From: a virus | Reading direction: 5' to 3' (one strand) | IMG/VR virus record: IMGVR_UViG_3300030331_003665 | Coordinates: 15,943-40,866 of that record | DNA: 24,924 nucleotides | In this document: positions 704 to 8,073 of the stretch, in pieces | Layout: the number at the start of each line of letters is the position of its first letter | How positions within the stretch are numbered: the stretch's first letter is position 1 | Made by a program: the position numbers and the translations under genes | Notes under the pieces: generated by a model | What the model saw: the letters and a program-made list of their open reading frames with translations, nothing else | The model's database searches: none | What the model was told of the DNA's origin: nothing

Positions 704-725
704 TAACGTCCTGAGCATGACGTTA
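704..725 (+). promoter_or_regulatory. Hairpin upstream of the SSB gene (AACGTC/GACGTT stem)
   Basis: TAACGTC (704-710) and GACGTTA (719-725) form a perfect 7-bp stem with an 8-nt loop. An ATG at 717 lies inside this hairpin, while the next in-frame ATG (756) follows 30 nt of unpaired CT/A-rich leader. The same six-base stem recurs at 4488-4510. Its position suggests a translational operator or RNA-processing site; that is inference. Confidence 0.6.
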
Positions 726-755
726 AAAGGTTTACAACTCATTCTCAATTCAACT

Positions 756-1610
756 ATGAATTTCATTACTGTGTCAGCTAAAGCAGTTGACAAACCAGAA
801 TCTCTTAAATCCAAAATACCTTGCACAGTTTGCAATGTAGAAATTCCTAAACCAGCATTTGGTAAAAGTTATGTACCTGTCTATGCTCAATTAAAAATAT
901 GGGGTAGAAATGCAGCTCTTTTAGCTGGTGTTCCACAAGGACAGCATCTACTTATTGTTGATGGTGAATTACTTATTAACTACAACAAAGAGACTCAAAC
1001 TAATGAGATTGAAATAAAAGCTAGAACAATAGCTCCATATCATGATGGTCCTTCTTGGCCTCCTATTAATAATGTCATTCTTTCAGGAAGAACATTTATT
1101 GATTTTGATCCTTCAGATCCTAAACAAAGAAACTATAGAGCAACTGACTCTGGATGGATCTTTGCTGAACAACGTTTAGCTGTTCAAAATAAACCTATCA
1201 GTACAAATAACTATCCTGATATTTATAGTTTCAAAACTGTATACAACAACAATGCTGAATACAGAGGAACTAATTATGCAAATGTTATAGCTGATATGCT
1301 GAACAGAAAAAATGTACCTGTCACAATAAAAGGTTCATTAGTTCGTGAAGAATCTAAGAATCCTGAAACAGGAGATGTTAGACATTATCCAAAAATCTTA
1401 TTAGCTGATAAAAATGCTTTATGTGTTGCGAAATTAACACCAGAGCCATCACAAAATGTAAAGCCAACAAAGCCAAAAGCTCAGTCAGCACCTACAGTTA
1501 TAGCAGATAACCCTTGGAAAGATTCTGATAACTTTCCAAGTTTAGCTCCTGATCCAACTCCTGTTCCTGCTGTAGCAACAGCACCAGATACGAGCGAAGA
1601 TCCTTTCTAA
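756..1610 (+). CDS. ssb: Single-stranded DNA-binding protein (OB-fold type, acidic C-terminal tail)
   Basis: About 284 residues. It probably coats ssDNA at the replication fork and recruits partners through its tail. Residues 1-95 look like one OB-type beta domain (VPVYAQLKIWGRNAALLAG...GQHLLIVDGEL). Residues 105-235 hold a second beta-rich segment. A Pro/Ala/Lys-rich linker leads to an acidic tip ending in SEDPF, closely like the DDDIPF tip of bacterial SSB. It sits directly behind DNA polymerase. An upstream in-frame ATG at 717 would add 13 residues, but it lies within a hairpin. The ATG at 756 is preceded by CTCAATTCAACT, a leader shared with the genes at 3391 and 4539, so I prefer 756. 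No Shine-Dalgarno is seen at either start. The double-domain length exceeds that of ordinary SSB. Confidence 0.75.
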   Translation: MNFITVSAKAVDKPESLKSKIPCTVCNVEIPKPAFGKSYVPVYAQLKIWGRNAALLAGVPQGQHLLIVDGELLINYNKETQTNEIEIKARTIAPYHDGPSWPPINNVILSGRTFIDFDPSDPKQRNYRATDSGWIFAEQRLAVQNKPISTNNYPDIYSFKTVYNNNAEYRGTNYANVIADMLNRKNVPVTIKGSLVREESKNPETGDVRHYPKILLADKNALCVAKLTPEPSQNVKPTKPKAQSAPTVIADNPWKDSDNFPSLAPDPTPVPAVATAPDTSEDPF

Positions 1611-1720
1611 ATTTCTAGGCGTTCATCTCGCAAGCATTAAGTTGCTAAAAGCCAATTGATGTAAGTCGGGGAGACATTGTGGGTTCGTCCTACTAAGAGC
1701 TTCTCCCTCCTAGAACCCCC
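1611..1720 (+). ncRNA. Candidate structured RNA / 5' leader element (multi-helix junction)
   Basis: The 126-nt gap between the SSB gene and the next gene folds on paper into a compact junction. P1 is TTCTAGG (1613-1619) with CCTAGAA (1709-1715). P2 is CATC (1624-1627) with GATG (1658-1661), enclosing GCAA/TTGC (1630-1633/1642-1645). P3 is GGGGAGA (1668-1674) with TCTCCCT (1702-1708), stacked directly on P1. P4 is GTGGG (1679-1683) with CCTAC (1689-1693), with one G-U pair. A competing helix, GGGTTC (1681-1686) with GAACCC (1713-1718), would break P1 and P4, so two exclusive folds are possible, as in a switch. The segment is more GC-rich than its surroundings and lies 17-22 nt before the ATG at 1737. 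No known class is recognised. Confidence 0.5.
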
Positions 1721-1736
1721 TTAACTACTGCCTCTA

Positions 1737-2753
1737 ATGACGCAATTAACTACGATGCCTTCTTCCAAGACAAAACCTAGTTCAATCACAAACTTTGAAG
1801 CCTCTTTCTCTATGTTTAGAGAAACCGAATTTATTGATGGTATAGATGGCTTTGGTACTCTTCAACCTTTACATAACAATGACAAAGCTTATTGGGCCGT
1901 AAAGGAAGAAAGTTTAAAAACATGTAAGTGGACTGCCACTGAAAAAGATTTCGATAAAGATTCAGTTCTTTGGAATCACTCTCACCGTTTTGCTAATGGT
2001 GCTAGAGAAACAATGCATGCTTTTATTAAGCCAAGAATCCAAATCATTCACACTTCTAACATCTTAGTTGTTGATGATCAGATTAAGGATAGAGCTGGTA
2101 AACCAATGAATATTATCGTTGGTGATCTTTCTATGCCTCATATCGCTAAAGCTTTTGAAGCTGATAAAGAACAGGCTGGTGAAAAAGGTGAACGTCAGTA
2201 TTCAACTAGAACTAAGTATCTAGTTAATATCCTTACTAAGGATAATCAACCAGCTCATGAAGTTCCTCTAGTTTTTACAGTTAAAGGATTAGCTAGTGTT
2301 GACATGTCTCAAATGTTGAAAGACTTTAATAGCCAAATGAACAAGTGTTATAGCACTGGTTTAGAGCTAAAAGGCAACATGAAGTTCGACAATAGAACTC
2401 AATCAACATTTGTCTTTGTACCTCACTTAGATATTCGTTCTGTACCTGCTCGTGGTAATAGAAGCGTCAACATCTGTGCAATAGAAGGTTATGAAAAACC
2501 TGACTATTCAACAGTTGAGAAAGCAAAAGAATCCATGTTTGAATACTCCATTCCTGTAGAGAATAGAGAAAAGACATGGGAACAGATGCAAGATGAATTC
2601 TTAGGTAATTACATCAACAAACATAGTGAACAGGAAGCTGCAAAGCTTAATGGTGCTTATGGTATTGCTGATGGAGTTCCAGCTCTAATGCCTAAGACAG
2701 TAGCAGTTCTACCAGAAGGTGCAGCTGATACTGGAGAAGACGCAGCTTTATGA
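1737..2753 (+). CDS. Conserved hypothetical protein of the replication cluster
   Basis: 338 residues, no membrane segment or signal peptide, with an acidic C-terminus (AADTGEDAAL). Internal features include FEASFSMFRETEFIDG near the start, a tryptophan-containing middle (YWAVKEE, LKTCKW), and a later beta-rich stretch (STFVFVPHLDIRSVP). I do not recognise the family with certainty. It is distantly reminiscent of cyanobacterial and phage proteins of unknown function that accompany SSB and recombination genes (DUF5895-like is a guess). Its place right after polymerase and SSB suggests a role in DNA replication or recombination, for example a single-strand annealing or binding partner; that is inference. 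The start at 1737 (ATGACG, no Shine-Dalgarno) follows a structured leader. Its stop overlaps by 6 nt the stop of the opposing NblA-like gene. Confidence 0.7.
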   Translation: MTQLTTMPSSKTKPSSITNFEASFSMFRETEFIDGIDGFGTLQPLHNNDKAYWAVKEESLKTCKWTATEKDFDKDSVLWNHSHRFANGARETMHAFIKPRIQIIHTSNILVVDDQIKDRAGKPMNIIVGDLSMPHIAKAFEADKEQAGEKGERQYSTRTKYLVNILTKDNQPAHEVPLVFTVKGLASVDMSQMLKDFNSQMNKCYSTGLELKGNMKFDNRTQSTFVFVPHLDIRSVPARGNRSVNICAIEGYEKPDYSTVEKAKESMFEYSIPVENREKTWEQMQDEFLGNYINKHSEQEAAKLNGAYGIADGVPALMPKTVAVLPEGAADTGEDAAL

Positions 2754-7854: not shown

Positions 7855-8073
7855 ATGTCTGTAGTTAAAAATGCAAGATGGATTATTGCAGAAAGCGATC
7901 CAATGAAACAGGTAGAAATTGTTTTTGATGACATACCTTGTAAGTATGCTTCATCATCTGATGATGATGGTTGGAGTGATTTACAAGCGTGGGTTAATTC
8001 TGGCAATACAATTATTGCATGGAGTAAAGAGGCATCATCAACACCTGATTTCATTACATCATCAAGATCATGA
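7855..8073 (+). CDS. Small fibre-associated hypothetical protein
   Basis: 72 residues. AGAGG (7845-7849) sits 5 nt before the ATG. The protein has an acidic Ser/Asp patch (SSSDDDGWSDLQAWV) and no membrane segment. A plus-strand frame starting at 7919 and a minus-strand frame (7839-8054) overlap it but lack a ribosome site. Directly following a fibre gene, it may be a fibre assembly factor or a virion accessory; that is inference from position. Confidence 0.65.
   Translation: MSVVKNARWIIAESDPMKQVEIVFDDIPCKYASSSDDDGWSDLQAWVNSGNTIIAWSKEASSTPDFITSSRS

Follow-up and report, generated by a model that had tools for sequence, protein, structure and literature searches.

In the early RNA of phage T7, RNase III sites are intercistronic hairpins with an asymmetric internal loop, and they separate the phage messages. 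The REP elements of enterobacteria are dispersed intercistronic structures that can protect the upstream mRNA from 3' exonucleases, and gp32 of phage T4 regulates initiation on its own mRNA. The T4 gene 32 leader comprises a pseudoknot of ~28 nt followed by an unstructured leader of >40 nt (PMC535899), and T4 offers precedents for post-transcriptional control in intergenic regions (PMC3014915). The manA (RF01745) and wcaG (RF01761) RNAs are conserved structured RNAs of unknown function in the 5' regions of several T4-like cyanophage genes (Weinberg 2010, PMC2864571).

We analysed a structured region between two genes in a viral DNA stretch of 24,924 nucleotides (the window). The upstream gene, itself preceded by a gene for a family A DNA polymerase, encodes a single-stranded DNA-binding protein (SSB); its NCBIfam SSB match is weak, and the syntenic gene in record G003 matches Pfam SSB with an E value of 6e-10. 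The layout of the locus, including the two RNA motifs, A and B, defined below, is as follows.

705..741, + strand: degenerate motif B in the SSB leader, with a stem at 705-710/719-724 and a degenerate second stem at 712-715/738-741
753..1610, + strand: upstream gene (SSB), stop codon TAA at 1608-1610
1615..1619, + strand: 5' strand of helix P1, CTAGG, 4 nt past the stop codon; invariant in four lineages, P1 covarying in the family
1620..1622, + strand: 5' side of the internal loop in the family register, C1620, G1621 (A in most members) and U1622, opposite U1660
1623..1659, + strand: P2, with proximal pairs 1623-1625/1657-1659, then a hairpin variable in length and sequence among members
1660..1666, + strand: 3' side of the internal loop, U1660 and GTAAGT 1661-1666, the hallmark of motif A
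1667..1708, + strand: extra arm of 42 nt, inserted before the 3' strand of P1 (P1') and containing P3 (1668-1674/1702-1708) and P4 (1679-1683/1689-1693)
1709..1713, + strand: P1', CCTAG, where conservation with L010 ends
1714..1736, + strand: G-poor leader without Shine-Dalgarno sequence, containing the 3' strand of an unconserved competing helix
1737..2753, + strand: downstream gene, a DUF5895 protein of unknown function (Pfam PF19247, E 4e-10)

P1 (core 1615-1619/1709-1713), P3 and P4, as drawn in the preliminary description of this region, are all present in the letters and in the minimum-energy fold. The P2 proposed there had to be replaced: it is not conserved, its sequence differs in L006 and L010, and the family register is 1623-1625/1657-1659. 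Because a plain energy model favours another P2 by 4 kcal/mol, we assigned the P2 of the window from the family and not from its own energy. The region is indeed GC-rich (47%, compared with 35% for the window, a value equalled by only 1.4% of 110-nt windows) and it stops 23 nt 5' of ATG 1737 with no Shine-Dalgarno sequence, as had been noted. Folding energy, suggested as a check, gave modest z-scores that depended on the segment taken (-0.41 for 1600-1740, -2.04 for 1610-1720), and those of homologues were -1.21 (L006) and -0.78 (L010).

It is conservation, more than folding energy, that exceeds chance, as judged by comparing the core with the DNA of the flanking genes. Using relatives of the flanking genes and a core pattern, we found the SSB/DUF5895 junction in four distinct lineages, i.e. 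the window (= L001), L002, L006 and L010. The 52-base core, from TAAGT to CCTAG, is identical in the window, L002 and L006, and L010 matches it at 51 of 52 bases, as against 75% identity for the SSB DNA and 66% for the DUF5895 DNA; the DUF5895 proteins of L010 and the window share 43% identity. Towards the downstream gene, conservation in L010 does not go beyond P1'. P1 is unchanged in L006 and L010 despite a 5' hairpin unlike that of the window, and the P3/P4 arm is kept in the four lineages with one substitution. The sole change in the loop of L002 turns GTAAGT into ATAAGT, a variant known from 12 family members. L013 (record G002) and L015 (record G003) have copies at this junction that lack the arm, so that GTAAG(T/G) is immediately followed by P1'. 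The first ~10 DUF5895 codons are identical at each base in the window (1737-1767) and L006 (1252-1285); as the SSB DNA of L006 is only ~72% identical, nucleotide constraint or recent exchange reaches into the DUF5895 gene there.

These comparisons indicated that the region first described is one enlarged copy, and that the finding proper is a dispersed RNA family. Judged from sequence, the element is an enlarged member, with its 42-nt extra arm, of the compact family that we call motif A. The latter consists of P1 (CUNGG/CCNAG), an asymmetric loop (CA.../GUAAGU) and the variable hairpin P2, with P1 closing directly after GUAAGU. With a first descriptor we located six copies in G003, two in S-EIV1 and one at another place in the genome of the window (G000:13081). 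The pattern built from these first copies matched at least 120 IMG/VR stretches, whereas a reversed control pattern matched none in IMG/VR; the motif A pattern tested was absent from 84,980 cellular genomes. A looser descriptor yielded 177 distinct copies in the loci collected here, with one to nine copies per record. The collections are metagenomic and include related contigs, and the counts are lower bounds.

P1 is CUNGG/CCNAG in 170 of the 177 copies and AUGGG/CCCAU in the other 7. Its third pair is G-C in 142, U-A in 20 and A-U in 15, and is never unpaired; two more pairs, further outward, covary as well. On the 5' side of the loop (C-A), the A is found in 156/177 copies and replaced by G in 8/177; the 3' side is (G/A)UAAG(U/C), with GTAAGT in 152/177 and ATAAGT in 12/177. 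The loop is followed by a U.U pair (127/177) or G-C, then by P2, whose pairs are formed in 99, 91, 86 and 91% of the copies (83, 51, 41 and 54% after shuffling). Since the descriptor presets GG, C, UAAG and CC and requires three outer pairs, the invariance of these letters carries no independent weight, unlike the covariation of P2 and of the outer positions. When 140 distinct copies were aligned by fitting them to a covariance model, the covariation score was 0.178, versus 0.073 after shuffling (0/500 reached 0.178) and at most 0.075 after sliding. Thus, the compensatory changes that the preliminary description had called for are found in both P1 and P2 across the family, while the two conserved halves stand 9 to 61 nt apart.

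The window reads CTAGGC(G)...GTAAGT...CCTAG, with G for A at 1621, and has the placement of a motif A (4 nt past TAA 1608-1610, 23 nt before ATG 1737), but P1 does not close directly after GUAAGU, the 42-nt arm intervening. The covariance model R1 did not detect the window, L002, L006 or L010, on account of the inserted arm. We therefore call the element an enlarged variant, its membership resting on the conserved core and on the orthologous junctions. The arm itself may hold a nested second motif A copy (C-A-U 1675-1677, U-A-A-G 1694-1697). R1 found two matches in S-EIV1 and none in S-CBWM1, S-TIM5, PA-SR01, B23, Lsp-JY19 or RcapMu. The motif A copies of S-EIV1 lie at about 40.7 and 41.4 kb, and this phage also has several copies of motif B. 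The host assignment comes from S-EIV1, a phage of Synechococcus, and from cyanophage-like genes; several groups may differ in host.

The position of motif A is constrained: the distance from the upstream stop codon to P1 is mostly 3-4 nt, and that from P1' to the ATG mostly 25-31 nt. The leader after P1' contains 7.5% G, and a Shine-Dalgarno-like sequence is present in 4/114 copies. In all copies examined, motif A was on the strand of the downstream gene. The downstream genes are varied (SSB, DUF5895, GP88-like, many small unknown proteins). Furthermore, P1' stands 1-6 nt before a tRNA in 31 cases, of which 30 are tRNA-Leu(UAA), for instance in L042 (7996-8041, with the tRNA at 8039), L083, L079, L050, L057, L089 and others. 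Many of these tRNA-Leu copies overlap the coding 3' end of the upstream reading frame, the stop codon of which sits inside the tRNA. Another phage group (L036, L052, L054, L059, L082, L120) has one motif A before a major capsid gene that is 67% identical to that of Synechococcus phage S-CBWM1. Phages of a GC-rich group (L043, L053, L067, L098, L115, L152; also L103, L117, L130) have a single motif A 3' of a conserved gene; next comes a long GC-rich tract of low complexity, frequently without a clear reading frame.

The preliminary description had called the region a structured phage RNA ahead of a gene that matches no described class, and this was borne out. An Rfam scan of the window gave nothing at the gathering threshold, with chance-level matches only (E up to 10), and the family copies were also unmatched, at that threshold and at relaxed ones, by Rfam models, including those of manA, wcaG, glutamine riboswitches and ribozymes. 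A glutamine riboswitch had been suspected from CGTTCATCT at 1620-1628, and cmscan gave no support to it. Neither the locus nor a motif A probe had blastn matches in phage genomes, and a literature search with motif sequences gave, among the matches listed, only unrelated ones for the short probe CTGGGCATCC. The exact core pattern was, like that of motif A, absent from the cellular genomes, which makes it unlikely that the element is an integration site derived from a gene of the host. Motif A resembles manA and wcaG in being a conserved structured RNA located 5' of several cyanophage-type genes. The latter, which gave no cmscan match, are in contrast larger riboswitch candidates linked to metabolic genes, and they neither adjoin stop codons nor precede tRNAs. 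Like REP elements, motif A is dispersed and intercistronic; unlike them, it has a different sequence, is phage-borne, keeps a fixed spacing to stop and start codons and was not found in cellular genomes with the pattern tested.

A second motif is common at the same junctions. Motif B (NNGUCC-UGAGCA-U-GACNN-UAAAC-UGCUCA) is an H-type pseudoknot whose second stem covaries (GGGCA/UGCCC, GGACA/UGUCC, AAGCA/UGCUU), the longest exact stem averaging 4.66 bp, against 3.24 bp with partners shuffled. Its exact pattern occurs in at least 120 IMG/VR stretches (one copy is L037 2605-2634) and it had no match in Rfam, whether at gathering or at relaxed thresholds. It lies mostly 4 nt past stop codons and 20-29 nt before start codons, precedes many different genes and stands in for motif A at SSB and DUF5895 junctions, so that SSB leaders have motif A or motif B. 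The hairpin of the degenerate copy in the SSB leader of the window is kept in L002, L006 and L010. Closely 3' of two motif B copies we found candidate hammerhead ribozymes, just under the Rfam gathering thresholds: L257 1896-1942 (31.0 bits, gathering 34; E 2e-6) and L234 2633-2691 (45.9 bits, gathering 48.5; E 2e-9). A third candidate, identified by pattern only, lies directly 3' of motif B on the minus strand of L247 (~8657 on the reverse complement). The hammerheads adjoining motif B suggest cleavage of the transcripts immediately 3' of this fold.

The element is almost certainly a genuine conserved RNA. As to its function, we tentatively favour, with nearly an even chance of being right, the hypothesis that motifs A and B punctuate transcripts by setting or protecting the ends of mRNAs. 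Motif A would mark boundaries within polycistronic phage transcripts, and the folds of both motifs would act as RNA roadblocks. The transcript would be cut in the single-stranded leader, or by RNase P at the 5' end of a tRNA, after which the fold would act as a cap that guards the upstream message, at its 3' end, from 3'-to-5' exonucleases. The fold may in addition protect the 5' side and hold the leader open for the ribosome. One long transcript would in this way give separately stable messages. We favour this hypothesis because the core is more conserved than the flanking genes, because the 177-copy family shows compensatory changes in P1 and P2 and a spacing fixed to the upstream stop and the downstream start, and because 31 copies stand 1-6 nt 5' of a tRNA, a place in which a role in translation would be hard to understand. 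The use of the unrelated motif B at the same junctions and at almost equal distances, the candidate hammerheads 3' of two of its copies and the G-poor, single-stranded leader point in the same direction. The presence of two unrelated compact folds at one site is easier to reconcile with a structural role, as roadblock or end protection, than with the recognition of one sequence; the neighbouring tRNAs and hammerheads favour RNA processing or stability over a control of translation alone.

Three observations speak against punctuation. The near-invariance of GUAAGU implies that something reads the loop or that the loop builds a special fold, which suggests specific recognition beyond the needs of a bare roadblock. 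The overlap of tRNA-Leu copies with the 3' end of the upstream frame sits badly with protection of that message. Finally, a fold 4 nt past a stop codon would open with each terminating ribosome.

The main rival, possible but less likely, is a translational operator similar to that of gene 32. A phage or host protein, such as SSB or ribosomal protein S1, would bind motif A or B and then the unstructured leader, and repress or promote initiation. T4 gene 32 has the same layout (PMC535899), the distance to the start codon is fixed and SSB leaders carry motif A or B. The operators of T4, T2 and RB69 similarly combine a compact fold with an unstructured leader, SSB is among the genes concerned here, and motif B is also an H-type pseudoknot with a short first loop. 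Motif A, however, is not a pseudoknot, and the motif B that precedes SSB is one, but degenerate in the window. Moreover, motif A precedes many unrelated genes and, directly, tRNA genes, and motif B also precedes many different genes. One protein would need to read two different folds.

We also considered that motif A might itself direct cleavage, as the signal read by an endonuclease of host or phage or as a self-cleaving RNA of an undescribed type, which seems rather improbable. The products would be mRNAs with a ~27-nt leader and tRNAs with a 1-6-nt leader, in keeping with the uniform distance of P1' to ATG and tRNA 5' ends, the strong conservation of the asymmetric loop and the hammerheads beside motif B. 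The resemblance to the T7 sites extends to the intercistronic position and the asymmetric loop, but GUAAGU and CUNGG are conserved in motif A, and RNase III sites comprise ~20 bp of double-stranded RNA. With inner segments down to 9-11 nt, many copies have only ~5 + 3 base pairs, too few for RNase III; the enlarged copy of the window is longer, yet is not one continuous helix. Known ribozyme models gave no match either.

A DNA-level element (promoter, origin or recombination site, with the hairpin in DNA) is very unlikely. Inverted repeats and the near-identical block shared by lineages would fit it, but an inner spacing of 9 to 61 nt with compensatory changes suits RNA over a rigid protein-DNA site, the copies examined were always on the strand of the downstream gene, and no conserved -10/-35-like sequence was seen.

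The preliminary description had proposed two exclusive folds and a riboswitch-like control. The competing helix (1681-1686/1713-1718) is found in the letters of the window. In place of GAACCC, its 3' strand, L002 has GCACCC and L010 has GTTTTC, which breaks the helix in two of the four lineages. The two-state idea thus fails, and the family copies do not have the arm that bears the 5' strand of this helix. A riboswitch is likewise not supported, given the many unrelated genes and the tRNA genes that follow the same element. Largely refuted by the homologues, a ligand- or temperature-sensing switch retains only a slight likelihood. A chance hairpin or intrinsic terminator, although a hairpin does follow the stop codon and folding z-scores are modest, has next to no likelihood and is already refuted for the family as a whole by the compensatory changes, by the at least 120 pattern matches against none for the reversed control and by the T-run required of a terminator, which is absent after P1' in 110/114 copies, seen in 4/114, and not found directly 3' of the hairpin in the window.

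Returning to punctuation, a broader version of it, which we put forward more tentatively still, is that many phages, cyanophages included, possess a two-part RNA punctuation system in which two unrelated compact folds, a hairpin with an internal loop and an H-type pseudoknot, can replace each other at a fixed spacing at the borders of genes and tRNAs, where they would protect or define the ends of mRNAs. If true, its role would be comparable to that of the exonuclease-resistant RNAs of eukaryotic viruses. A widespread, sharply defined RNA with compensatory changes and no Rfam entry represents a phage-shared device new to the sources searched, and an isolated carrier is known, S-EIV1 of Synechococcus. 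Its fixed placement at stop codons, start codons and tRNAs and its exchange for a pseudoknot make it directly testable by what means phages keep the messages of a long transcript separate and stable.
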